A stretch of DNA of 38,756 nucleotides, taken from an uncultured Flavobacteriaceae bacterium. GTDB taxonomy: Bacteria > Bacteroidota > Bacteroidia > Flavobacteriales > Flavobacteriaceae. The stretch covers positions 1-38,756 of the forward strand of contig CALJFB010000041.1 of the NCBI GenBank assembly GCA_938073895.1, given 5' to 3'. Of the stretch, positions 24,156 to 38,756 are shown in pieces (position 1 is the first letter of the stretch; each line of letters begins with the position of its first letter). Made by a program: the position numbers and the translations under genes. The notes beneath the pieces are model-generated. The model made no database searches, was not told the origin of the DNA, and saw nothing but the letters and a program-made list of their open reading frames with translations.

Positions 24156-24380
24156 TTATTTATACATATCGCTAGAGCCTTCTACAAAAGCATAGCCCAA
24201 ATCCTTAAGTAAAATACGTAAACCTTCGTAAGCATTATGTGTTGCGTAATCAAACGAAAGCTTATTGCTTTTAGTGTCTAGGTTAAGATTTGTAATGCCT
24301 GTTAAGGATTGTGCTTTTTTTAAAATAGTACTACTAAAACTATCTGTTTTTAGGTCTTGTAATAAAATAGTTTCTCTCAT
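24156..24380 (-). CDS. Small HMA-like (ferredoxin-fold) protein without CxxC
   Basis: A 74-residue soluble protein starting MRETILLQ. Its predicted beta-alpha-beta-beta-alpha-beta pattern (ILLQDL, helix to LTGITNLNLDT, KLSFDY, helix EGLRILLKDLGYAFVE) resembles heavy-metal-associated domains. The metal-binding CxxC is absent, so copper binding is doubtful. ATG at 24380 is chosen over an in-frame TTG two codons upstream. It follows the Crp/Fnr gene by 69 bp, and that gap holds an Fnr-like site at the activating distance. With ccoI divergently placed beyond fnr, it may belong to the oxidase or copper set; this is inference. Confidence 0.75.
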   Translation of the reverse strand: MRETILLQDLKTDSFSSTILKKAQSLTGITNLNLDTKSNKLSFDYATHNAYEGLRILLKDLGYAFVEGSSDMYK

Positions 24381-24397
24381 AGCCAATTTACTTTTGG

Positions 24398-24441
24398 CTA
24401 AACTATAAAGATCTTAAATTAATAAAGATGATTTTTGTCAG
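24398..24441 (-). promoter_or_regulatory. Candidate Fnr-like site and -7 element of the HMA-like gene
   Basis: Read on the minus strand, CTGACAAAAATCAT (24441-24428) keeps the TGA-N6-TCA core, with one perfect half (ATCAT) and one degenerate half. TAGTTTAG (24405-24398) is a near match to TAnnTTTG. Centre to last base of the -7 element is 36.5 bp, the same as in the three perfect sites of this window. Confidence 0.5.
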
Positions 24442-24449
24442 TGTATAAA

Positions 24450-25145
24450 TTATTCTGTTAATCCATCTACAATAGCTTGTAGTTTTTGTTTATTAACTAA
24501 TTTTATACGTTTGCCTTCTGTAGAAATAAAGCCATCTTTTTTTAGTTTCGATAGTGCTCTAATACATGCCTCTTTTGCGGTACCAACAATTCCAGCAATA
24601 TCTTCACGTGTAAAAATCATTCCAATATAGCCATCTGCATCTATATTAAAAGTAATCTCTAAGTATAGTAGAAGCTCTGCAATTCTCTGACGCACATTTT
24701 TTTGTGCCATATTAACAATAATATTATCTGCAATTTTTAACTCGTTTGCCATTTCTAGCAACAGTTCCTTAGTGAAATCAGGATTTGTGCTAATGGATTC
24801 AGATAGTTGGTTTTTAGGAATAAAACAAACTTCCATATCGTTTAATGCTACAGCACTTAGGTTTGTGCATTCTTCCGTAATTACAGAACGTTGCCCTAAA
24901 ACTTCGCCTTTAGTCGCTATTTTAACAATCTGATCTTTACCATTGTCACTCATTTTAGAGAGTTTAGATACACCATCTTTTACACAGAAAACACCATTTA
25001 ATTTTTCGCCTTCTTCAAAAATAAAATCACCTTTTCTTATTGTTTTAGAAACTTTAGTATCCGAGATACGCTTTAATTCCTCTTTTTTTAAGGCTTTTAA
25101 AGCATTTAACTCTCTAATAATACAATTTTCGCAGCGAGATTCCAT
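24450..25145 (-). CDS. Crp/Fnr family transcriptional regulator
   Basis: A 231-residue regulator with an N-terminal cyclic-nucleotide-type beta-roll (about residues 25-115, IRKGDFIFEEGEKLNGVFCVKDG), a dimer helix, and a C-terminal winged helix-turn-helix (FTREDIAGIVGTAKEACIRALSKLKKDGFI). It starts MESRCENC, so C5 and C8 could be part of an oxygen-sensing Fe-S site as in FNR, but the full four-Cys FNR pattern is not evident; other Cys lie at about 54, 93 and 106. It lies between the HMA-like gene and the divergent ccoI, and Fnr-like palindromes flank the neighbouring low-oxygen genes. It is the obvious candidate activator of the cbb3/hemN set. Confidence 0.9.
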   Translation of the reverse strand: MESRCENCIIRELNALKALKKEELKRISDTKVSKTIRKGDFIFEEGEKLNGVFCVKDGVSKLSKMSDNGKDQIVKIATKGEVLGQRSVITEECTNLSAVALNDMEVCFIPKNQLSESISTNPDFTKELLLEMANELKIADNIIVNMAQKNVRQRIAELLLYLEITFNIDADGYIGMIFTREDIAGIVGTAKEACIRALSKLKKDGFISTEGKRIKLVNKQKLQAIVDGLTE

Positions 25146-25226: not shown

Positions 25227-25270
25227 ATGATATTTATCATAATTTATAATCAATTTTTAAAAGAACTTTG
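25227..25270 (+). promoter_or_regulatory. Fnr-like palindrome and -7 element of ccoI
   Basis: ATGATATTTATCAT (25227-25240) is a perfect inverted repeat in the 5-4-5 layout of Fnr sites (TTGAT-N4-ATCAA in proteobacteria). GAACTTTG (25263-25270) is a near -7 element. Centre to its last base is 36.5 bp, putting the site near -42 from the expected start, where an activator replaces the -33 contact. Confidence 0.7.
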
Positions 25271-25300: not shown

Positions 25301-27706
25301 ATGGAGAATTGCTTCCATTGTGGAGATACTTGTAGTAATGGTGTTATAAGACACAGCGATAAGTCGTTTTGTTGTAATGGCTGTAAAACTGTTTTTGATA
25401 TTTTACACGATAATAATTTAGATTATTATTACGAGTTGGAGCAAACACCAGGAATAACACCTAAAGCCATAAATGGTAAGTTTGATTACTTAGAAAACGA
25501 AACAATAATTAAGGAACTTTTAGATTTTAACGAGGCTAATACTCAGATAGTTTCTTTTTTAATTCCTGCAATTCATTGTAGTTCTTGTATTTGGGTTTTA
25601 GAAAATTTAAATAAGCTTAACTCAAATATTTCAACTTCTCAAGTTAATTTTCCCAAAAAAACGGTTCGAATTAGTTATAATACGGCGCAAACTAATTTAA
25701 AGTCTGTTGTAATATTATTAAGTAAGTTGGGGTACGAGCCCTATATATCTTTAAACGACATAAAAAAAGATTCTAATGCTAAGGACCGAAGTTTAACTTA
25801 TAAGTTAGGAGTTGCAGGTTTTGCTTTTGGTAATATTATGTTCTTATCTTTTCCAGAATATTTTGAGGTTAACGAGTTTTGGTTGGAGAAGTTTAAGTAC
25901 ATTTTTAGATGGCTTATGCTATTCTTTTCTTTGCCGGTGGTTTTTTATTCTGCCCAAGATTATTTTGTGTCCGCCTATAAAAGTGTTAAGTCTAAGTTTT
26001 TAAATATAGACGTACCAATAGCTATAGGAATAACTGTACTTTTTGTTAGGTCTTTAGTAGAGGTTGCTTTGGATTTAGGCACAGGCTTTTTTGATAGTTT
26101 GGCTGGTTTAGTATTCTTTTTATTGTTAGGGAAGTTTTTTCAGCAAAAAACCTATAATTACTTGTCTTTTGAGCGCGATTATAAATCTTACTTTCCAATT
26201 GCGGTTACAAAATTAGATCCTGATAATCTTACAAACGAGTTCCAAACTAAAGTTTATGATTTAGTTCAAGATGATTTTATTTTAATTAGAAACGAAGAGC
26301 TAATTCCTGTAGATGGAATTCTAAAAAGTAATAACGCTTTTATAGATTATAGCTTTGTTACTGGCGAAGCTAAATTAGTAGAGAAAACCTTAGAAGATAA
26401 AATTTTTGCAGGAGGAAAGCACTCTGGAACACCAATTATAATTAAAGTTACAAAATCTGTTAAGCAGAGTTATTTAACGCAACTTTGGAATAATGAGGTT
26501 TTTAGTAGTGCTAATCAAAATATATTTCAAACTTTAACAGATAAAATCAGTCAGCGTTTTACCAAAACCTTGTTGGTTATTGCTCTAATATCTGCTGTTT
26601 TCTGGCTGTTTTTAGATAGTGCTAAAGTTCTAAACGTTTTTACAGCAGTCTTAATTGTGGCCTGTCCTTGTGCATTAGCATTGGCAGCACCTTTTACCTT
26701 AGGTAATTTACTCCGTATTTTTGGTGTAAATAAATTATACCTTAAAAAAGCTGAGGTAATAGAACAATTAGCAGAAATAGATACTATTGTGTTCGATAAA
26801 ACAGGAACATTAACTACAAATGCTCTACATACTATTTCTTTTAAAGGCGATTCGCTTTCCGAAGAAGAAAATAATCAGCTTAAGAATGTATTAAGAGCTT
26901 CAAATCACCCATTAAGTCGTGCGTTGTTTAATCACATAAAAAGTAATAAGAATTATAATATTACCAATTATTCTGAAGAAGTTGGTCAAGGAATTAGTGG
27001 GACAATACATAATATACCTTTAAAAATTGGGCGTTTCGATTTTGTAACTTTAGATTTAGATACTGTTATTAAAGCTGAATCGAGTGCGTTTCAAACTACA
27101 GTTCATATTACAATAGGAAATAAGTATAAAGGATATTATGCTTTTAAAAACGAATATAGGAATGGATTTGATCATCTATTAAACCAACTATCTAAAAGCT
27201 ATAATTTAGTTATTCTATCTGGAGATAATTCAGGCGAAACAGATTATTTAGCTAAGACATTGTCAAGTAAAGTAGATTTAGTTTTTAATCAGAATCCAAA
27301 CGATAAATTAGAATTTATAAAATCGCTTCAACAAAAAAACAAAAAAATATTAATGATTGGAGATGGATTAAACGATGCTGGAGCTTTGGCACAAAGTAAT
27401 GTTGGGTTATCTATTTCAGAAAACATTAATGTGTTTTCACCAGCTTGCGATGGAATTTTAGATGCATCTATGTTTATAAACATCTTTAATTTTTTAAAGG
27501 TTTCCAAAAAAGGAGTTCAAATAATTAAATACGCCTTCTTTTTCTCATTGTTCTACAATATAATCGGGTTAGGTTTTGCGGTAACAGGTCATTTAAAACC
27601 TGTAGTAGCAGCAATTTTAATGCCTTTAAGTTCTATTTCAATTGTTTTTTTTACAACTATTTCGTCTTATTTAATTGGACGGAAAATAATTAAAAAGAGT
27701 TTTTGA
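25301..27706 (+). CDS. ccoI: Heavy-metal (copper) translocating P-type ATPase, CcoI/FixI type
   Basis: An 801-residue P1B-type ATPase, in this context supplying copper for the CuB centre of cbb3 oxidase. An N-terminal Cys-rich module (MENCFHCGDTC, then FCCNGC) is followed by an HMA domain with CSSC (C93, C96). The eight-span core has the CPC metal motif at C455-P456-C457, the actuator TGEA (VTGEAKLVEK), the phosphorylated D499 in FDKTGTLTT, and the hinge GDGLNDAGAL. It is first in the cco locus. An Fnr-like site lies upstream and another starts 2 bp after its stop. Confidence 0.93.
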   Translation: MENCFHCGDTCSNGVIRHSDKSFCCNGCKTVFDILHDNNLDYYYELEQTPGITPKAINGKFDYLENETIIKELLDFNEANTQIVSFLIPAIHCSSCIWVLENLNKLNSNISTSQVNFPKKTVRISYNTAQTNLKSVVILLSKLGYEPYISLNDIKKDSNAKDRSLTYKLGVAGFAFGNIMFLSFPEYFEVNEFWLEKFKYIFRWLMLFFSLPVVFYSAQDYFVSAYKSVKSKFLNIDVPIAIGITVLFVRSLVEVALDLGTGFFDSLAGLVFFLLLGKFFQQKTYNYLSFERDYKSYFPIAVTKLDPDNLTNEFQTKVYDLVQDDFILIRNEELIPVDGILKSNNAFIDYSFVTGEAKLVEKTLEDKIFAGGKHSGTPIIIKVTKSVKQSYLTQLWNNEVFSSANQNIFQTLTDKISQRFTKTLLVIALISAVFWLFLDSAKVLNVFTAVLIVACPCALALAAPFTLGNLLRIFGVNKLYLKKAEVIEQLAEIDTIVFDKTGTLTTNALHTISFKGDSLSEEENNQLKNVLRASNHPLSRALFNHIKSNKNYNITNYSEEVGQGISGTIHNIPLKIGRFDFVTLDLDTVIKAESSAFQTTVHITIGNKYKGYYAFKNEYRNGFDHLLNQLSKSYNLVILSGDNSGETDYLAKTLSSKVDLVFNQNPNDKLEFIKSLQQKNKKILMIGDGLNDAGALAQSNVGLSISENINVFSPACDGILDASMFINIFNFLKVSKKGVQIIKYAFFFSLFYNIIGLGFAVTGHLKPVVAAILMPLSSISIVFFTTISSYLIGRKIIKKSF

Positions 27707-27708
27707 AA

Positions 27709-27752
27709 ATGATAATTATCATCTTTTAAAGTAATATTTAAGGGTAATTTTA
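27709..27752 (+). promoter_or_regulatory. Fnr-like palindrome and -7 element of ccoS-ccoNOQP
   Basis: ATGATAATTATCAT (27709-27722) is a perfect 14-bp palindrome starting 2 bp after the ccoI stop. TAATTTTA (27745-27752) is a near -7 element, again 36.5 bp from centre to last base. It marks a second, internal start for the structural oxidase genes. Confidence 0.72.
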
Positions 27753-27772: not shown

Positions 27773-27982
27773 ATGACAATTATTTATTTACTTCTGGCAA
27801 TTAGTGTATTAGTGGCTTTGGCCTTTTTTGCAGCATTTATTTTTTCTGTTAAAAGTGGACAGTATGACGATGTATATACGCCATCTGTACGAATGCTTTT
27901 TGATGATGAATTGGTTAAGCCAGCAACCAAAAAAAATAAAATCACACCAAATAAAATAGTAAAAACTAACAAACACAATTAA
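27773..27982 (+). CDS. ccoS: cbb3-type cytochrome oxidase assembly protein CcoS
   Basis: A 69-residue membrane protein with one N-terminal span (about residues 3-25, IIYLLLAISVLVALAFFAAF) followed by the CcoS-typical SGQYDD motif and a basic tail. CcoS is needed for cofactor insertion in cbb3 oxidase in other bacteria. It is first after the internal Fnr-like site, 8 bp before ccoNO. Confidence 0.93.
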   Translation: MTIIYLLLAISVLVALAFFAAFIFSVKSGQYDDVYTPSVRMLFDDELVKPATKKNKITPNKIVKTNKHN

Positions 27983-27990
27983 ATATTATT

Positions 27991-30192
27991 ATGGAAGTAC
28001 AACAGTTTTATTACGATAATAAAATCGTTCGAAAATTCATTGTTGCAACAATGTTTTGGGGAGTCATTGGAATGAGTGTAGGGTTGCTTTTAGCATTTAT
28101 GTTTTTATTTCCAAATCTAACGGACGGAATTTCTTGGCTAAGTTTTGGAAGGTTAAGACCATTACACACCAATGCTGTAATTTTTGCATTTGTTGGTAAC
28201 GCCATTTTTGCTGGAGTTTATTACTCTTCGCAGCGTTTACTTAAAGCAAGAATGTGGAAAGATTGGTTAAGTAATTTAAATTTTTGGGGTTGGCAGGCTA
28301 TAATAGTTGGTGCTGCAATTACATTACCTTTAGGTTACACCTCATCTAAGGAATACGCGGAATTAGAATGGCCTTTTGATATTGCTATAGCTCTTATTTG
28401 GGTTGCTTTTGGTGCCAATTTAATTGGGACTATTTTAAAAAGAAGACAACGCCATTTATACGTTGCAATTTGGTTTTATTTAGGAACATTTGTTACAGTA
28501 GCTGTTTTACATATTGTAAATAGTATGGAAATTCCTGTTAGTCCATTAAAAAGTTACTCGGTTTATGCAGGCGTGCAAGATGCTTTAGTACAATGGTGGT
28601 ACGGACATAATGCAGTAGCATTTTTCCTAACAACGCCTTTCCTTGGGCTTATGTACTATTTTGTGCCTAAAGCCGCTAATAGACCAGTTTATTCTTATAG
28701 ATTATCTATTGTACACTTTTGGTCGCTTATTTTTATTTATATCTGGGCAGGACCACATCACTTATTATATTCCGCATTACCAGAATGGGCTCAGAATTTA
28801 GGGGTTGCCTTTTCTGTAATGCTATTAGCACCATCTTGGGGTGGAATGATAAACGGATTATTAACACTTCGTGGTGCTTGGGATAAAGTACGTGTAGATC
28901 CAGTTTTAAAATTTATGGTAGTTGCAATTACAGGTTATGGTATGGCAACGTTTGAAGGACCCGTATTATCTCTTAAAAATGTAAATGCAATTGCTCACTT
29001 TAGCGATTGGATTATTGCACACGTTCACGTTGGTGCTTTAGCTTGGAACGGTTTCTTAACTTTTGGTATGATTTATTGGATGGTACCAAAACTATTTAAA
29101 ACAACACTTTGGTCTACTAAATTAGCCAATGCGCATTTTTGGATTGGAACTTTAGGTATTATTTTATATGCTTTACCAATGTATGTTGCAGGTTTTCAAC
29201 AAGCTTTAATGTGGAAAGAATTTAATCCAGATGGTACTTTAAAATATGGTAATTTCTTAGAAACATTATCAGAAATTATTCCAATGTATTGGATGAGAGC
29301 TATTGGTGGAACCTTATTTATAATAGGTATGTTTTTGATTGTTTATAATATGATCATGACTGCAAGACAAGGTAGTAAAGTAACAGATGAGTTAGCTGAA
29401 GCTCCTGCGCTAGAAAAAGTAACTGCTAAAAGAACAACTAAAGAAGGTTATCATACTTGGTTAGAAAGAAGACCTGTTAAATTAACGATTTATGCTACTA
29501 TAGCAATTTTAATTGGTGGAATTGTACAAATTTTACCATCTTTAATGGTAGATGATTATATTCCTGTAATTAGTAGTGTTAAGCCTTATACACCTTTAGA
29601 ATTAGAAGGTAGAGATATTTATATAGCAGAAGGTTGTGTAGGTTGCCACTCTCAAATGGTTAGACCTTTTAGAAGTGAAGTAGAGCGCTATGGAGAATAC
29701 TCTAAAGCTGGAGAATATGTTTACGATCATCCATTTTTATGGGGATCTAAACGAACAGGTCCAGATTTAATGCGTGTTGGAGGTAAATATTCAGATAATT
29801 GGCATTTAAATCATATGTACGATCCACAAAGTACATCTTCAGGTTCTATTATGCCGAGTTATAAATGGTTAATTAAAAATAAATTAGACAAGACCTTAAC
29901 AGAATCTAAGCTAGAAGTAATGGTTACTTTAGGTGTGCCATATACCACAGAAGATATTGCAACAGCTCAAGAATCTATGTTGGAACAAGGAACAGAAATA
30001 GAGAAAAACCTTTATAACGATCCCGATTTTGCAAAAACCTACGAAGCAGATAAAAAATATGCCAAAGCCAATGGTTTAGAGTTTATTGAAATGAGAAATA
30101 GAGAAATAGTAGCTGTTATTGCCTATTTACAACGTTTGGGGACAGATATTAAAGTAAAGAATCCAGACGGAACAGAAACTGAATTAAAATAA
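27991..30192 (+). CDS. ccoN: cbb3-type cytochrome c oxidase, fused subunits I and II (CcoN-CcoO)
   Basis: A 733-residue fusion. Residues 1 to about 465 form the CcoN catalytic subunit, with about 12 spans and haem/copper histidines in HTNAVIFAFVGN, WWYGHNAVAFF, GPHHLLYSALPEW and the pair in HFSDWIIAHVHVGAL. After a basic linker, one span (about 495-515) begins the CcoO part, a monohaem cytochrome c with the CVGCH site (C549, C552, H553) and Met-rich SQMVRPF. Separate ccoN and ccoO genes are usual in proteobacteria; the fusion is known in Bacteroidota. It is the high-affinity proton-pumping terminal oxidase for low oxygen. Confidence 0.95.
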   Translation: MEVQQFYYDNKIVRKFIVATMFWGVIGMSVGLLLAFMFLFPNLTDGISWLSFGRLRPLHTNAVIFAFVGNAIFAGVYYSSQRLLKARMWKDWLSNLNFWGWQAIIVGAAITLPLGYTSSKEYAELEWPFDIAIALIWVAFGANLIGTILKRRQRHLYVAIWFYLGTFVTVAVLHIVNSMEIPVSPLKSYSVYAGVQDALVQWWYGHNAVAFFLTTPFLGLMYYFVPKAANRPVYSYRLSIVHFWSLIFIYIWAGPHHLLYSALPEWAQNLGVAFSVMLLAPSWGGMINGLLTLRGAWDKVRVDPVLKFMVVAITGYGMATFEGPVLSLKNVNAIAHFSDWIIAHVHVGALAWNGFLTFGMIYWMVPKLFKTTLWSTKLANAHFWIGTLGIILYALPMYVAGFQQALMWKEFNPDGTLKYGNFLETLSEIIPMYWMRAIGGTLFIIGMFLIVYNMIMTARQGSKVTDELAEAPALEKVTAKRTTKEGYHTWLERRPVKLTIYATIAILIGGIVQILPSLMVDDYIPVISSVKPYTPLELEGRDIYIAEGCVGCHSQMVRPFRSEVERYGEYSKAGEYVYDHPFLWGSKRTGPDLMRVGGKYSDNWHLNHMYDPQSTSSGSIMPSYKWLIKNKLDKTLTESKLEVMVTLGVPYTTEDIATAQESMLEQGTEIEKNLYNDPDFAKTYEADKKYAKANGLEFIEMRNREIVAVIAYLQRLGTDIKVKNPDGTETELK

Positions 30193-30199
30193 AAATATT

Positions 30200-30391
30200 A
30201 TGTTAAAATTTATAAAAGGAAACTTAGAACAGATAGACAATGTAGCTGTTTATCCAATGATTTCGCTACTTATTTTTTTCATCTTTTTTGTAGTACTATT
30301 TTGGTGGGTTTTTACTGCTAAAAAAGCTCATATTGAGGAAGTAAGTGCTATTCCTTTAAACGACAACACCATAAATTTAAAAGAACAATAA
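30200..30391 (+). CDS. ccoQ: cbb3-type cytochrome oxidase subunit CcoQ
   Basis: A 63-residue single-span protein (span about residues 19-42, MISLLIFFIFFVVLFWWVF) between ccoNO and ccoP, the standard place of CcoQ, which helps stabilise the complex. The start lies 7 bp after the ccoNO stop, and ccoP begins 2 bp after its own stop. Confidence 0.88.
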   Translation: MLKFIKGNLEQIDNVAVYPMISLLIFFIFFVVLFWWVFTAKKAHIEEVSAIPLNDNTINLKEQ

Positions 30392-30393
30392 TA

Positions 30394-31284
30394 ATGAAAA
30401 CAACCGCATCATATTTTAGAGTTATTCTATTTACAATTGCTTCAATTGGTGTTATAGAATATTTATACGAAACAGGCACAGAATGGGCTATGTTTACTCA
30501 ATACTTGTTTTGGTTAATAGTTGGCTGTATTGTCTTGTTTGCTATAGCTTTTGAGATTTGTATAGAAGCTTTAGAAACCGTTTTAGCACATTCTTTAGAG
30601 GAAGAAGCTAAAGTTAAGTATATCGCTAAACGTAAAGAAGATCAGCAAAGACCATTTAATAAAATCAATGCTTTTTATCAAAGGTTATTAGGTAGTAAAT
30701 CTATAAAGGAAGAGCACGAAATTATTCTAGATCACAATTACGACGGAATTAAAGAATTAGATAATAATTTACCGCCTTGGTGGGTTTATAGTTTTTATGC
30801 TAGTATTTTATTTGCAGTAGTGTATTTAGTACGTTTTGAAGTTTTTCACGATTATAACCAAGTTGAAGAATATGAAGCAGCTGTAGAATTTGCTCAAAAA
30901 GAAATTTCTGAGTGGAAAAAAACAGCTAAGAATTTAGTAGATATTACAACGGTTGAGGTATTAACCGAGGCTTCAGATTTATCTGCCGGTAAAAAAATAT
31001 TTAATGCTAACTGTGTAGCTTGCCATAAAGCTGATGGTGGCGGTGGTATTGGTCCCAACTTAACAGATACAAATTGGATTTTAGGAGGCGGAATTAAAAA
31101 TGTGTTTAAAACAATTTCCGAAGGTGGAAGAGATGGAAAAGGAATGGTTTCCTGGAAATCAGATTTAAAACCTCTTGAAATGGCCCAAGTTGCAAGTTAT
31201 GTACTAACATTTCAAGGAACAACACCAGCTGAACCTAAAGATCCAGAAGGCAATGTTTGGACTCCAGAGGCAACAGATAAATAA
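30394..31284 (+). CDS. ccoP: cbb3-type cytochrome oxidase subunit III, single-haem (CcoP)
   Basis: A 296-residue membrane-bound cytochrome c that feeds electrons to CcoNO. It has two extra N-terminal spans (about residues 7-55), a charged cytoplasmic stretch, the CcoP-typical ELDNNLPPWWVYSFY span (about 120-150), then one cytochrome c domain with CVACH (C207, C210, H211) and GPNLTDTNWI. Proteobacterial CcoP carries two CxxCH sites; only one is present here. It is in one operon with ccoS, ccoNO and ccoQ. Confidence 0.93.
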   Translation: MKTTASYFRVILFTIASIGVIEYLYETGTEWAMFTQYLFWLIVGCIVLFAIAFEICIEALETVLAHSLEEEAKVKYIAKRKEDQQRPFNKINAFYQRLLGSKSIKEEHEIILDHNYDGIKELDNNLPPWWVYSFYASILFAVVYLVRFEVFHDYNQVEEYEAAVEFAQKEISEWKKTAKNLVDITTVEVLTEASDLSAGKKIFNANCVACHKADGGGGIGPNLTDTNWILGGGIKNVFKTISEGGRDGKGMVSWKSDLKPLEMAQVASYVLTFQGTTPAEPKDPEGNVWTPEATDK

Positions 31285-31326: not shown

Positions 31327-32748
31327 ATGGCAGAACAAGATCAAGACAACTTTAGAGATACTATTGGAACTTTAGCAGAAGATGGGAAACGCGCTTGGGT
31401 TTTTCCAAAAAAGCCTTCTGGTAAGTGGTATAACTACAGAAAGTATGTAAGTTATGTATTGCTTTTATTTTTGTTTTCTGCGCCATTTATAAAAATTAAT
31501 GGCAATCAGTTTTTACTTTTTAATGTATTAGAGCGTCGTTTTAATATTTTTGGATTTCCGTTTTGGCCACAAGATTTTCACCTTTTTGTTATTATAATGA
31601 TTATAGGTGTTGTTTTTGTTTTACTTTTTACAGTTGCTTTTGGGCGTTTGTTTTGTGGTTGGGTTTGCCCACAAACTATTTTTATGGAAATGGTTTTTAG
31701 ACGAATAGAGTATTGGATAGATGGCGATAGAGGTAAGCAAATACGATTATCTAAAATGCCTTGGAATGCAGAAAAAATTAGAAAACGATTATTAAAGTGG
31801 TTTGTTTTTTTTATTATTTCATTTTTAATAGCTAATATTTTTTTAGCCTATTTAATTAGTAGCGATACTTTATTAAGATACATTACAGAAGGTCCGCTTA
31901 ATCATTCTAGCACACTAATTTCTTTATTAATTTTTACAAGTGTATTCTATTTTATATTTGCTTGGTTTAGAGAGCAAGTCTGTATAATAGTTTGTCCTTA
32001 TGGACGTTTGCAAGGTGCTTTATTAGATAATAAATCTATTGTTGTTGCTTACGATCATAAAAGAGGTGAAAAAGAAGAAGGACGAGCAAAATTCAAGAAA
32101 AATGAAGAAAGAGCAACTACAGGAAAAGGCGATTGTATAGATTGTAACCAATGTGTAAATGTTTGTCCTACAGGAATAGATATTAGAAATGGTACACAGC
32201 TAGAATGTATTAACTGCACCGCTTGTATAGATGCTTGTGATCACATTATGGAATCTGTAAACCTTAAAAAAGGATTAATTAGATACGCCAGCGAAGAGAA
32301 TATTGAGAAAAAAGCACCTTTTACATTTTCACCAAGATTAAAAGGCTACACTGTAGTTTTAGGAATCTTAATTTCTGTTTTAATAGGAATGCTATTTTTA
32401 CGTAACGATGTTGAAGCACGTATTCTAAGATTGCCAGGTCAGTTGTATGAGCACAAAGCGGAAAATATTATAAGTAATGTTTATACTTTTAAATTGGTTA
32501 ATAAAACAACACAAGATTTAAATAATTTAGAATTTAAACTGGTATCTCATAAAGGCGAAATCAAAATAGTATCTCATAAAACTATCGATATTGAAAAGCA
32601 AGGATTAGCAGAAGGTACTCTTTTTGTAGAAATTAATGCTGCTGCTTTAAAAGATGATAAAATAAAATTAGAGATTGCTATTTTTAGTAATGGAAAAGAA
32701 ATAGAAAGTACTACAACTAATTTTTTAGGGCCAAGAAGCTATAAGTAA
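31327..32748 (+). CDS. ccoG: Cytochrome c oxidase accessory protein CcoG
   Basis: A 473-residue membrane Fe-S protein (CcoG/RdxA/FixG), reported elsewhere to reduce copper during cbb3 assembly. There are about five spans, with a CGWVCPQTIFMEM motif near residue 112 and CIIVCPYGRLQG near residue 223. Two [4Fe-4S] ferredoxin clusters follow (C270, C273, C276, C280 and C294, C297, C300, C304). The periplasmic C-terminal domain is the immunoglobulin-like part found in the family. It lies 42 bp after ccoP. Confidence 0.94.
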   Translation: MAEQDQDNFRDTIGTLAEDGKRAWVFPKKPSGKWYNYRKYVSYVLLLFLFSAPFIKINGNQFLLFNVLERRFNIFGFPFWPQDFHLFVIIMIIGVVFVLLFTVAFGRLFCGWVCPQTIFMEMVFRRIEYWIDGDRGKQIRLSKMPWNAEKIRKRLLKWFVFFIISFLIANIFLAYLISSDTLLRYITEGPLNHSSTLISLLIFTSVFYFIFAWFREQVCIIVCPYGRLQGALLDNKSIVVAYDHKRGEKEEGRAKFKKNEERATTGKGDCIDCNQCVNVCPTGIDIRNGTQLECINCTACIDACDHIMESVNLKKGLIRYASEENIEKKAPFTFSPRLKGYTVVLGILISVLIGMLFLRNDVEARILRLPGQLYEHKAENIISNVYTFKLVNKTTQDLNNLEFKLVSHKGEIKIVSHKTIDIEKQGLAEGTLFVEINAAALKDDKIKLEIAIFSNGKEIESTTTNFLGPRSYK

Positions 32749-32763
32749 CAAAACAAATTTATT

Positions 32764-33210
32764 ATGAAAATTAATTGGGGAACAGGAATAGTTTTAGGAA
32801 TGTTAGCTTTTATTAGCTTTATATTATACTTGGTTATTACAATGGTAACCAATCAAAATTTTTCTCACGATTTAGTTACCGAAGAGTATTATGCCAAAGA
32901 AATGGTGTATCAAGATGAAATTGATGCGGAAACAAACACCAATAATTTAAGTACAAAGTTAACAGGTAAAAAAACGTTAGATGGTTGGTTAATTACTTTT
33001 CCTGAAGAGTTAGAAAGTAAAGCTGTAATGGGAAAAGTATTCTTATATAGACCTTCTAATATGATATTAGATTTTGAGTTACCTCTTAAAATATCTAATA
33101 ATAGCTTTCTTATACCTAAATCTAAATTGTTAGATGGTCGTTGGAACATTACTATAGAATGGACTTACAACGATAAATCTTACATGTACAAAAAGGAAAT
33201 TTTATATTAA
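32764..33210 (+). CDS. ccoH: FixH/CcoH family protein
   Basis: A 148-residue protein with one N-terminal span (about residues 7-29) and a periplasmic FixH-like domain (NFSHDLVTEEYYAKEMVYQDEID near the membrane, then GRWNITIEWTYNDKSY). FixH/CcoH stays with the cbb3 complex during assembly. It sits between ccoG and the SafE-like gene, with gaps of 15 and 3 bp. Confidence 0.9.
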   Translation: MKINWGTGIVLGMLAFISFILYLVITMVTNQNFSHDLVTEEYYAKEMVYQDEIDAETNTNNLSTKLTGKKTLDGWLITFPEELESKAVMGKVFLYRPSNMILDFELPLKISNNSFLIPKSKLLDGRWNITIEWTYNDKSYMYKKEILY

Positions 33211-33213
33211 ACT

Positions 33214-33918
33214 ATGTTATTATCTGCTTTAATATTAGGATTACTTGGCAGTTTACATTGTATAGGAATGTGTGGACCAATAGCTTTTTTATTGCCATTA
33301 GATAGAAGTAATAAGTTAAAAAAAGTATTTCAATTATTTAGTTATCACTTTGGTAGGCTAACAACCTATGCTTTTTTAGGCCTTGTTTTTGGTCTTTTAG
33401 GAAGAAGTTTATACTTGTTTGGTTTGCAGCAACGCGTAAGTATTGTAGTTGGTGTAATAATGATAGTATCAGTCTTATTACCAAAACAATTTAGTACATC
33501 AAAGTGGTTTGGTCCAATGTATCATGTGGTAGCAAAAGTAAAATCGCTTATTGGATTTAACTTAAAAAATAAAACGGCTGGTTCTTTTTTTATTATTGGA
33601 TTATTAAATGGATTATTGCCTTGTGGCTTAGTTTATATGGCTGTTTTTGGAGCTATAGGTACAGGTCAAATTTTTCAAGGAAGTTTGTATATGTTTGCTT
33701 TTGGTTTAGGTACAGTTCCTTTAATGACTTCTGTTATTTATTTAGGTAATTATTTATCTCAGCCAATAAAACAAAAAATTTTAAAGCTTATTCCTGTATT
33801 TGTAATTATTGTAGGAATTCTATTTATACTAAGAGGCTTAGGTTTGGGAATACCTTATATATCGCCTTCAGAAAATGTAACCGTAAAAACGGCTAAAGCA
33901 TTGCAAAGCTGTCATTAA
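33214..33918 (+). CDS. DsbD_2-type / sulfite exporter TauE/SafE family membrane protein
   Basis: A 234-residue polytopic protein of about six spans. HCIGMCGPIAFLLP near residue 16 and the later GLLNGLLPCGLVYMAVFGA give two conserved Cys-Pro/Cys-Gly hairpins, typical of the DsbD_2 family that sits at the end of cco loci. Copper handling or thiol transfer for oxidase assembly has been proposed for relatives; I infer the same here from position. It lies 3 bp after ccoH. Confidence 0.85.
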   Translation: MLLSALILGLLGSLHCIGMCGPIAFLLPLDRSNKLKKVFQLFSYHFGRLTTYAFLGLVFGLLGRSLYLFGLQQRVSIVVGVIMIVSVLLPKQFSTSKWFGPMYHVVAKVKSLIGFNLKNKTAGSFFIIGLLNGLLPCGLVYMAVFGAIGTGQIFQGSLYMFAFGLGTVPLMTSVIYLGNYLSQPIKQKILKLIPVFVIIVGILFILRGLGLGIPYISPSENVTVKTAKALQSCH

Positions 33919-33935
33919 TTTTTAAATTTATTATT

Positions 33936-34094
33936 ATGAAAAACTTATTAAATCTTCCTCTAGTAAATTGGGGAATGGGTTCTGCAATTATTGGAGTCTT
34001 TGCCCTAGTTTGTGTTATCCTAGTCGTTGTAGTGTATAATATGGTAACTTCTGACTCTGAAAAAAAGGAGAACGATGAAAATACAGCTATTTAA
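33936..34094 (+). CDS. Small single-span membrane protein at the end of the cco operon
   Basis: A 52-residue reading frame beginning MKNLLNLPLVNWGMG and ending KENDENTAI. It has one strong span (about residues 15-39, SAIIGVFALVCVILVVVVYNM) and an acidic/basic tail. The ATG is 17 bp after the SafE-like stop, spaced like the neighbouring operon genes, and a terminator follows. The span resembles that of CcoS or CcoQ in kind, but I recognise no family. A role in oxidase assembly is inference from position. Confidence 0.7.
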   Translation: MKNLLNLPLVNWGMGSAIIGVFALVCVILVVVVYNMVTSDSEKKENDENTAI

Positions 34095-34171
34095 AAACAA
34101 CATATAAACAGCTTTTATTTTAATGTATGTAATTATGTATATTAAGCTCTTATCTCGATTTTAGTAAAACA

Positions 34172-34206
34172 AGAAGGCTTAAAATATATTTTAAAGCCTT
34201 TTTTAG
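34172..34206 (+). terminator. Terminator of the cco operon
   Basis: aaggctt pairs with aagcctt around an A/T-rich inner palindrome, followed by a T-run to 34205. It lies 78 nt after the 52-residue gene. Confidence 0.8.
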
Positions 34207-34230
34207 TTTTCATAAAAAAAATGAAAATAA

Positions 34231-34269
34231 AAAAAGAGGTTTGCCTTTAAAAATGGCAAACCTCTTTTA
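34231..34269. terminator. Terminator facing hemN, bidirectional
   Basis: A stem of aaaagaggtttgcc / ggcaaacctctttt with a 9-nt loop, A-run upstream and T-run downstream. It lies 20 nt after the hemN stop on the minus strand and backs up the cco terminator. Confidence 0.88.
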
Positions 34270-35655: not shown

Positions 35656-35940
35656 TTAAAGCGTAAAATTACAAAACGTTATTAAAGTATATATAGCAAG
35701 ACTTACTCTAGTATAGAGTGTTTTTTTTGGTTTTAAAACAGATATTATTGTTACTTGTATTTTATTATATAGAACTGCTATTGTAATTAATTTAAGTTGT
35801 TTAAAAACACTTGTACTATTTTGTAATGTTGACATTATTGTAGTGCAACCAAAACACCTAAAAACTATAATAGCTTTAGACACATATAACATAAAATAGT
35901 CTTTAAAATTTTTCCCTACTTTTTGCATTGCAAAACTCAT
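35656..35940 (-). CDS. Possible 94-codon leader gene upstream of hemN
   Basis: An ATG 26 bp after the -7 element of the Fnr-like promoter opens a frame that stays open for 94 codons and stops 5 bp before the hemN ATG. The product would start MSFAMQKVGKNFKDYF, have two or three weakly hydrophobic stretches and CFGC in the middle. About one codon in eight ends in G/C, as in nearby genes. I recognise no family, and the amino-acid make-up is not convincing, so it may be an untranslated leader. Confidence 0.3.
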   Translation of the reverse strand: MSFAMQKVGKNFKDYFMLYVSKAIIVFRCFGCTTIMSTLQNSTSVFKQLKLITIAVLYNKIQVTIISVLKPKKTLYTRVSLAIYTLITFCNFTL

Positions 35941-35965: not shown

Positions 35966-36009
35966 CAAATCTATAAACGATACACGATTTAAAAGATGAT
36001 AAAAATCAT
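35966..36009 (-). promoter_or_regulatory. Fnr-like palindrome and -7 element upstream of hemN
   Basis: ATGATAAAAATCAT (35996-36009; on the minus strand ATGATTTTTATCAT) has perfect 5-bp arms in the 5-4-5 layout. On the minus strand TAGATTTG (35973-35966) is a full TAnnTTTG match, 36.5 bp from the centre to its last base. Transcription would run toward hemN with a leader of about 310 nt. Confidence 0.7.
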
Positions 36010-37310: not shown

Positions 37311-38126
37311 TTAACAGATGCGACAGAGCTTTATAAATTTAATAAATGAATTTAAAATCTTTTTTATTATTAAATTCACAACATTCCAATTTTTCATGGT
37401 ATCTACACAGCTTGGTGAATATTTGTAATAAAATTTGATAAATTTATTCCCTAGAGTATAGTGAGCTAAAAAATCATCTCTAAAATCCCTTAAAATTAAA
37501 ACCTGATGGTGGTCATAATCTCCGTAAACCATTGTAGCTATAAAACATCCACTACCTTTATTTGTGCTAAAATAATTTTCTCCTTCACCAAATATAGATT
37601 GACCATAGTAATTTTCACCTTTTTCACCTTCGTGAGAATTGTATAATTTTCTAACCTGTTTTTCTCTATCCTTTTCGAGCTGAGGATGCACCTTACTATT
37701 AATTATTTTATTAAAAATAATATTGTAGTTTTTCAAATGCCTTTCTTCTGTTTCTTTAGACATTGGAAGACCAATAGAATTATGGAACAAATAATAACAA
37801 TCAATATCCCCTTTAATTGATTTATGATTATTAATATGCTTAATAGCCAAAGCAATTATTAATTTAACTATTTTATCATACAATTTTAAAACCTCGTCTT
37901 TTGTAAGTTCTTTTCTTAAAGTCGGCAAATAATTGTGAGATGTTTTTAAAAGTTTTTCAGCAGGTTTAATTAAAGAGGTTTTGTGAGAGTTTTCATTCAT
38001 ATAATAATGTGAAGGACCATATGAAAATAATATCTTTTCTTCTTTGGTAGAGTTATCCCACTTTAATAAAATCTGTTTAGATTCTTCATAACAATCAATT
38101 ATTTTATTAACGTAAATATTTTTCAT
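37311..38126 (-). CDS. CFI-box C-terminal domain protein of unknown function
   Basis: A 271-residue protein. The first 180 residues are mostly charged helices with no family I recognise (LTKDEVLKLYDKIVKLIIALAIKHI, a GEKGENYYG / GEGENYFS near-repeat). Then GSGCFIATMVYGDY with C194, ILRDFRDDFLAH, LGNKFIKFYYKYSPSCV form the CFI-box module (usual form CFIATAAYG, LRxFRD, GxxFVxxYYxxSP) found at the ends of many unrelated bacterial proteins. A weakly hydrophobic helix follows (LIIKKILNSFIKFI). The module's role is unknown; its conserved Cys suggests processing or anchoring. There is no signal peptide. It has its own terminator. Confidence 0.72.
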   Translation of the reverse strand: MKNIYVNKIIDCYEESKQILLKWDNSTKEEKILFSYGPSHYYMNENSHKTSLIKPAEKLLKTSHNYLPTLRKELTKDEVLKLYDKIVKLIIALAIKHINNHKSIKGDIDCYYLFHNSIGLPMSKETEERHLKNYNIIFNKIINSKVHPQLEKDREKQVRKLYNSHEGEKGENYYGQSIFGEGENYFSTNKGSGCFIATMVYGDYDHHQVLILRDFRDDFLAHYTLGNKFIKFYYKYSPSCVDTMKNWNVVNLIIKKILNSFIKFIKLCRIC

Positions 38127-38333: not shown

Positions 38334-38756
38334 TTATTCCTTACCCAAGAAATCTTTCCATCCTTCCCACTCTTTTTTATACTCCGCACTGTAATCTGGA
38401 TTTTTAGGAAAACAATCTGGTCTTAATTGACTTTCTTTCCACTCCTTTTTTGTTTTAATATTATTTTTTAAAGCCCATTCTTGTGCTTTATGAAAAGAAT
38501 CAAATTTTTTATTGTTTGTTGTACCAAGAAAATCTTTCCAACCATTCCACCCTTTGAGACTGTAGGTTTGATCTGGCTTTCTTGGAATGTTTTTGATGTT
38601 TTTTTCTTTGACATGCTCCACCCACTGACTTGAATTCTTCAGGTTGAGACTTTGAACGTATTTCCTTGCTTCCTCAAATGATAAGTATTGATGTTTTTTT
38701 AATTGGTCTGCTATTCTTCCTGTTCCAAGCCAATCACCGAGCCCAACCCAACCACT
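38334..38756 (-). CDS. WxGWxDFLG repeat protein, 5' end outside window
   Basis: The frame is open from the window edge to TAA at 38334, giving the last 140 residues. Three copies of a W-x-G-W/L-x-D-W/F-LG core are seen: GWVGLGDWLGTG, GWNGWKDFLGTT and EWEGWKDFLGKE. They are separated by about 60 and 52 residues that hold an aromatic-rich helix and a P-x-x-P-x-x-Y lead-in (RKPDQTY, KNPDYSAEY). Such repeats are seen in integrase-associated and algal or oomycete helicase-like proteins, but the function is not established. A GTG at 38621 is a possible internal start, yet the upstream repeat shows the gene continues. Confidence 0.75.
   Translation of the reverse strand, partial: SGWVGLGDWLGTGRIADQLKKHQYLSFEEARKYVQSLNLKNSSQWVEHVKEKNIKNIPRKPDQTYSLKGWNGWKDFLGTTNNKKFDSFHKAQEWALKNNIKTKKEWKESQLRPDCFPKNPDYSAEYKKEWEGWKDFLGKE

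Follow-up and report, generated by a model that had tools for sequence, protein, structure and literature searches.

Oxygen reductases have small subunits that easily escape notice, and the cbb3 oxidase locus of an uncultured Flavobacteriaceae bacterium raises the question of whether one of them lies at its end. Within the window, that is, the whole 38,756-nucleotide stretch of DNA that was analysed, a 52-residue frame with a single membrane span (33936..34094, + strand) stands behind the last recognizable gene of the locus, and an earlier note on this DNA had proposed it as an overlooked oxidase subunit or assembly factor. Proteins of this kind are known elsewhere. According to the available portions of the source, CcoX (Cj1486, DUF4006) is essential for oxidase activity in C. 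jejuni and the 33-residue CcoY is important, both being small single-span proteins needed for full cbb3 activity (PMC8267372). CcoM of the Pseudomonas stutzeri cbb3 oxidase is described, in the portions available of each source, as a 36-residue subunit (PMC10433244) with a single transmembrane segment (PMC8267372), found as a new subunit by mass spectrometry (PMC9264385).

The locus itself is ordered ccoS-ccoNO-ccoQ-ccoP-ccoG-ccoH, followed by a SafE-like gene and the small gene, all on the + strand. It comprises ccoS (27773..27982; FixS, E 5e-19, and TIGR00847), a fused ccoN-ccoO (27991..30192; NF011053, 1330 bits, with PDB matches including 3mk7 and 5djq), a ccoQ-like gene below the Pfam cut-off (30200..30391; FixQ, 27.2 of 29 bits), ccoP (30394..31284; FixP_N, E 6.5e-20), ccoG/fixG (31327..32748; TIGR02745, 442 bits, above cut-off), ccoH/fixH (32764..33210; Pfam FixH, E 2.5e-25) and a gene for a SafE-like, DsbD_2 membrane protein (33214..33918; Pfam DsbD_2, E 2.2e-52). 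Because all genes from ccoS to the small gene point the same way and lie 2 to 42 bases apart, they likely form one operon, and transcription would run from ccoS through the small gene. Upstream lie a ccoI-like metal P-type ATPase gene (25301..27706, +; Pfam E1-E2_ATPase, ATPase-cat_bd and HMA) and, divergent from it, a gene for a Crp/Fnr-family regulator (24450..25145, -; cNMP_binding, E 3.4e-18; HTH_Crp_2, E 5.4e-15). The SafE-like proteins of cbb3 loci, including that of the window and others across the loci L164 to L243, have for the most part Cys-His or a similar ending (ECH, DCH, SCH), which suggests a metal or thiol role for the tail. At the end of the window, a frame on the - strand (38334-38756) has repeated W-x-GWKDFLG-like units and looks like a repeat domain.

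The small frame opens with an ATG at 33936, 17 bases beyond the stop codon of the SafE-like gene, and its stop codon ends at 34094. The encoded protein has one hydrophobic span (19-residue mean hydropathy of 3.04) and then a charged tail, so that the earlier description of the frame is borne out by ORF reading and hydropathy. The region is AT-rich and the window holds many chance ORFs, such that the length of this short frame is in itself weak evidence for a gene. Still, it is a real gene, because the protein is conserved, occurring in 82 of the 249 family genomes, and is under purifying selection: the closest pairs give pN/pS values of 0.08/0.42, 0.09/0.81 and 0.11/0.77, a ratio of about 0.1-0.2. 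On this evidence a chance ORF or non-coding stretch is ruled out, its probability being negligible. Downstream, stable hairpins with T-runs (34171-34203, 34206-34228 and 34232-34268) separate the small gene from a convergent radical-SAM, hemN-like gene. The stretch as a whole (34171..34268, +) folds with a z of -4.8, none of 200 shuffles being equally stable. Although a simple terminator scan did not flag these hairpins, they are the part of the evidence that favours the terminator which had been supposed after the small gene, and they would act as a bidirectional one.

Members of the family are 38-64 residues long (median 46) and follow a consensus of roughly M-x4-[IL]PLV[ND]W-x-[NM]G, then the span, then a GKKK-like tail. 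Among the 78 members that have a full ORF, 72 retain the W and 77 the G that comes after it, and an F, a V and an L persist in 74, 73 and 72, respectively. The C-terminal side is richer in Lys and Arg in 76 of the 78, which suggests an N-out/C-in topology as far as charges can predict it; with acidic residues included, the C-terminal side is the more positive in 50 members and the N-terminal side in 14. The tail of the window protein is itself acid-rich, and its topology is less clear than that of the family. Conservation along the span is periodic near 100 degrees (16 of 5000 shuffles were as strong), and the conserved face comprises G15, I19, F22, V25, L29 and V33 in the numbering of the window protein. 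A single conserved helix face is as expected for packing on a partner.

The distribution of the gene was traced from a first protein search of 60 genomes, the window's own included, which gave ten further matches with E < 2e-4. A profile from the first matches, and then one from the 78 members, was run on 249 genomes of the same family. The 82 carriers, again including the window's own genome, match at E <= 2.4e-5 with one copy per genome, and the next-best match among the 249 lies at E 0.004. Searches at the level of the class (198 genomes) and of the order (196 genomes) gave no confident match outside the family, all confident ones being from the same family; the best outside it reached E 2.6e-4 in the order and 1.5e-3 in the class. 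Co-occurrence with FixH is pronounced, as FixH is present in 81 of the 82 carriers and the small gene in only one of 59 genomes that lack FixH (Fisher p 7e-11, a statistic that ignores kinship). Conversely, 109 of 190 FixH-positive genomes have no detectable small gene, an absence from over half of the FixH-bearing genomes that the earlier note had not foreseen and by which the protein is not a core cbb3 subunit. Both genes are missing together in two genus-level pairs (G001 beside the window's genome, and G011 beside G265); here a single operon deletion would also explain the paired loss, and loss of FixH along with the small gene may reflect shared ancestry or genome reduction. The one FixH-negative carrier (G140, locus L114) belongs to a divergent subgroup (L113, L114, L116, L117) in which, from ORFs read by eye, the small gene adjoins translation-factor-like or 3-dehydroquinate-synthase-like genes.

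The position of the gene is of two kinds. In 27 of the 82 genomes it immediately follows the SafE-like gene in the cbb3 operon, 26 of these being loci with a full ORF and one (G060) being placed by coordinates. In the 26, ccoH precedes the SafE-like gene, and the gap between the latter and the small gene is -14 to 42 bp, with one of 154 and a median of 18. The remaining 52 of the 78 full-ORF loci hold relocated copies away from cbb3, a majority of carriers that the earlier note did not anticipate, and in G007 and G061 the small gene lies on a contig other than that of the SafE-like gene. Among the 81 context loci, three (L097, L111 and L142, of G061, G007 and G060, respectively) have no ATG-started full ORF and stand outside the 78-member profile and the box counts given below, and one carrier (G210) falls outside the context loci. 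A second collection placed the gene directly behind the SafE-like gene in 43 of 48 loci, including those of Dokdonia, Bizionia, Mesonia, Winogradskyella, Nonlabens, Gillisia, Salegentibacter and Altibacter. It overlaps the first, as at least 12 of the 48 loci are from the same genomes, which leaves 31 of 36 new ones operon-linked, and this share is biased upward by a query made from operon-linked members. In two cbb3 loci the small gene is followed by a second small single-span protein (L135:1802-2005 in G078 and L147:3548-3733 in G028, both on the - strand); in G028 the profile of the 78 members gives a weak signal there (E 0.03).

Conservation of the frame wherever the preceding gene is kept had been named as decisive, and on this point the outcome is mixed. 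Of 190 genomes with a SafE-like match, the small gene follows it in 27 and lies elsewhere in 54, G210 is not placed, and no copy was detected in 108. The idea that the other SafE-like genes are followed by a hidden small gene was considered and rejected: in the slot of 80 such loci the family profile matches nothing, and only two of the 80 have a hydrophobic small ORF that starts within 60 bp of the stop codon. A tree of 106 SafE-like proteins (the 26 from operon-linked loci and 80 chosen from 163 other SafE-positive genomes) requires eight changes of operon state against a shuffled mean of 23.5, with most branches weak. All 40 relocated rows fall into one group, and 24 of the 26 operon rows lie outside it and two within. 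This is consistent with the operon position being old and with relocation and loss having come later, a sequence of events for which the tree gives no direction.

What is new here is that most relocated copies carry a promoter box and downstream element of the type found before ccoS. The inverted repeat TGAY-N4-RTCA occurs upstream of 43 of the 52 relocated copies (200 rounds of shuffling gave a mean of 0.5 and a maximum of 3) and of none of the 26 operon copies. It starts 59-77 bases before the ATG in 38 of the 43, and a TANNTTT element follows 22-24 nt past it in 34. Nine copies lack the box: four of them show a single mismatch in the expected position, two a single mismatch at a distant site, and three have two mismatches. 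Genes neighbouring the relocated copies have a box within 180 bp in 35 of 363 cases, in ten of which it is only the box of the small gene, read in the opposite orientation, and in 25 of which it is a box belonging to the neighbour. The strict FNR consensus TTGAY-N4-RTCAA was found at none of the 52 relocated copies and is rejected, the actual box being without the outer T and A. Because the motif had been spotted by reading the same 52 upstream sequences on which it was then counted, ccoS promoters were fetched as an independent set. The 40 promoters, from 20 genomes with the small gene in the operon, 12 with it relocated and eight without it, of 190, all carry the box at -59 to -64, and 39 have the downstream TAnnTTT element. 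Since most relocated copies carry the ccoS-type box, the small gene seems, as judged from promoter sequence, to remain part of a Crp/Fnr-type regulon, presumably a low-oxygen one, whatever its position.

In the window, the box of ccoS (TGATAATTATCA, 27710..27721) lies 63 bp before the gene as a putative Crp/Fnr-type activator site, and a -7-like element, TAATTTT (27745..27751, +), follows it by 23 nt. A further box (TGATATTTATCA, 25228..25239) lies 73 bp before ccoI; the element after it differs by one base (GA for TA) and falls outside the strict pattern search. The other three begin at 35997, in front of the gene that precedes the hemN-like gene, at 24429, and at 37504, the last probably a chance occurrence. 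Five boxes are mildly above expectation for the window (mean 1.8; 4 of 100 shuffles reach five). Two small genes without a Pfam match accompany these boxes. One (24156-24386, -) lies behind the Crp/Fnr-type regulator and has its own box at 24429-24440. The other (35656-35940, -; 94 residues) precedes the hemN-like gene, with the box at 35997-36008 upstream; a cluster of 94-95-residue genes (c22) is found at this position in four further loci, and by size and place we take it to be the same family.

The available portions of one source place the flavobacterial promoter element TAnnTTTG at -12 to -5 and state that the cbb3 oxidase of F. psychrophilum is strongly up on oxygen limitation (PMC9723704). 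With the element so placed, the predicted centre of the box is at -41.5. Promoters with the box would be candidates for an oxygen response, and the Crp/Fnr-family gene at 24450-25145 is the likeliest candidate reader. A centre at -41.5 is what we take to be the geometry of a class II activator. The box-plus-element pattern occurs four times in the window's own genome against one in the reversed control: at ccoS, at the hemN operon, at a universal-stress-like gene and at one apparently chance place. The universal-stress-like ORF, read by eye, follows the pattern at C55:16059-16100 of the own genome (locus L335, around position 1501). Across 60 genomes of the family, it occurs 0 to 57 times per genome (controls, 0 to 7). 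The regulon is therefore broader than cbb3 in many species, and the shared box thus points to the regulon and not to the oxidase itself. Among the literature matches listed, none describes this box in Flavobacteriaceae.

The protein has no convincing place in a known family. No Pfam or NCBIfam match of the window protein reaches its cut-off. The strongest weak matches among the 78 members are to NCBIfam MHJ_0274 (five members, best E 3.3e-6) and Pfam DUF5455 (five members, best E 5.7e-5), and the commonest is to the FliL model (24 members, best E 1.8e-4; 15.7 of 187 bits for the window protein). As these matches are weak and differ between members, they are read as generic matches to a hydrophobic span, and membership was rejected. 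The PDB has no match to the family profile better than E 0.14, and cbb3 chains are absent from the 27 matches up to E 10, with CcoN of 5djq in the set searched, at a sensitivity that is low for such short proteins. Among the literature matches listed, from a search with subscription journals mostly outside it, none describes the small protein.

Likeness to the known small cbb3 proteins is thus one of role and place. As with CcoX and CcoY, a small single-span protein is encoded in a cbb3 locus; unlike theirs, which in the available portions of the source lie between ccoP and ccoH (PMC8267372), the gene follows the SafE-like gene. CcoX differs by its DUF4006 domain, the profile of which (PF13179) has a single weak match in the own genome (E 0.24), away from the small frame, and CcoY is likened by description. 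CcoM is likened by role, and no cbb3 chain of the PDB set matches the profile up to E 10. CcoQ/FixQ is also a small single-span protein of the cbb3 operon, but the window has a separate CcoQ-like gene at 30200-30391, and the FixQ profile (PF05545) matches the own genome at 30257-30367 and three other places, not at 33936-34094. With the N-terminal span of CcoH/FixH there is a common NWGxG-span pattern, and this span is the best of 73 operon-protein windows in profile comparison, weakly so (16.5% for that segment of CcoH and 50% for full CcoH; 23-84% with other row sets). Unlike CcoH, the small protein lacks a periplasmic domain, and it has no match to the full FixH domain (PF05751) at E up to 10. 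The charges of the small protein suggest a topology opposite to that of CcoH. With these low probabilities and the seemingly opposite topology, a truncated CcoH paralogue is a weak candidate.

Read together, conserved synteny, co-occurrence with FixH and shared promoter architecture support a link to cbb3, and explanations that place the protein elsewhere have to be weighed against them. The neighbours of the relocated copies, often sulfide-handling genes that the earlier note did not foresee, invite the reading that the protein serves sulfide or copper handling and not the oxidase, as a partner of the SafE-like/DsbD_2 protein in the operon and of persulfide, SQR, TauE/SafE or copper-uptake genes elsewhere. 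Indeed, in 29 of the 52 relocated loci a gene no more than four genes away belongs to one of ten clusters that we class as mainly sulfide-handling (PDO-rhodanese, SulP, thioredoxin, SQR, TPMT and rhodanese, with YgaP-like, Tll0287-type cytochrome and HMA-like as weaker members), the counts being 14 for MBL-rhodanese, 11 each for thioredoxin and SulP, eight for the Tll0287-type cytochrome, and seven for YgaP-like, with others besides. Seven lie near a TonB receptor (cluster c10; L101, L105, L106, L110 and others) whose L101 member has a copper receptor model as its best NCBIfam match, below cut-off at 239 of 472 bits, and in cbb3 loci the small gene follows the SafE-like gene and not another cco gene. 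Against this, 21 of the 52 have neither type of neighbour and 18 of these 21 keep the box, and the SafE-like protein does not need the small one, because 80 SafE-like loci have no homologue behind them. The lack of sulfide genes within four genes in all 26 operon loci says little, because those stretches are for the most part 5 kb long and taken up by cco genes. On balance this reading is unlikely.

Scarcely different in standing, and likewise doubtful, is a small membrane protein with a general stress role in the low-oxygen regulon, without a dedicated complex, for which the cbb3 operon would be a convenient promoter. Its own promoter in scattered places, its absence from many genomes and the occurrence of the promoter pattern at many other places in many species are what such a protein would show; its near-exclusivity to FixH-positive genomes, the clustering of the operon position on the SafE tree (in more than one group, and with the weak branches noted) and the conservation of a single helix face, which a specific partner would lead one to expect, speak against it. 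Far less probable is a CydX-like small subunit of cytochrome bd or another oxidase. Genes named by eye as cydA-like and cydB-like lie within four genes in three and four relocated loci, respectively, but the other loci have no cyd neighbours and cbb3 linkage is far commoner. CydX does not appear among the Pfam matches listed for the window protein or among the 25 of 59 families listed for members.

The best reading is thus a dispensable accessory factor of cbb3. We regard it as reasonably probable, if well short of certain, that this small membrane protein has an accessory part in low-oxygen respiration, most likely as a peripheral subunit of the cbb3 oxidase or as a factor in its assembly or stability, a kind of role comparable to that of CcoM in Pseudomonas and of CcoX and CcoY in Campylobacter. 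Co-expression with the oxidase is predicted by position for the 27 operon-linked genomes and by the ccoS-type box for the 43 relocated copies. Of the earlier proposal, the small cbb3-linked membrane protein is supported, and by sequence it could be either a subunit or an assembly factor. The Crp/Fnr-type regulator would activate either the operon from ccoS to the small gene or, for relocated copies, the small gene's own promoter. The protein would then insert as one helix, with its N-terminus outside and its basic side inside, and its conserved face would pack against a partner in the membrane that belongs to the oxidase or to its assembly machinery; partner, regulator identity and function are those that we infer.

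A bolder idea, and an improbable one, is that of a mobile cbb3 subunit, a single helix moved between the oxidase operon and sulfide or copper clusters under the same Crp/Fnr-type promoter, which would tune or shield cbb3 under low oxygen combined with sulfide or a shortage of copper. If true, respiration would be coupled to sulfide detoxification. The small gene is specific to its family and without a convincing Pfam or NCBIfam match, and its promoter signature persists where synteny is lost. With it, the Flavobacteriaceae gain a defined candidate for a cbb3 accessory protein and a predicted box of a low-oxygen regulon.
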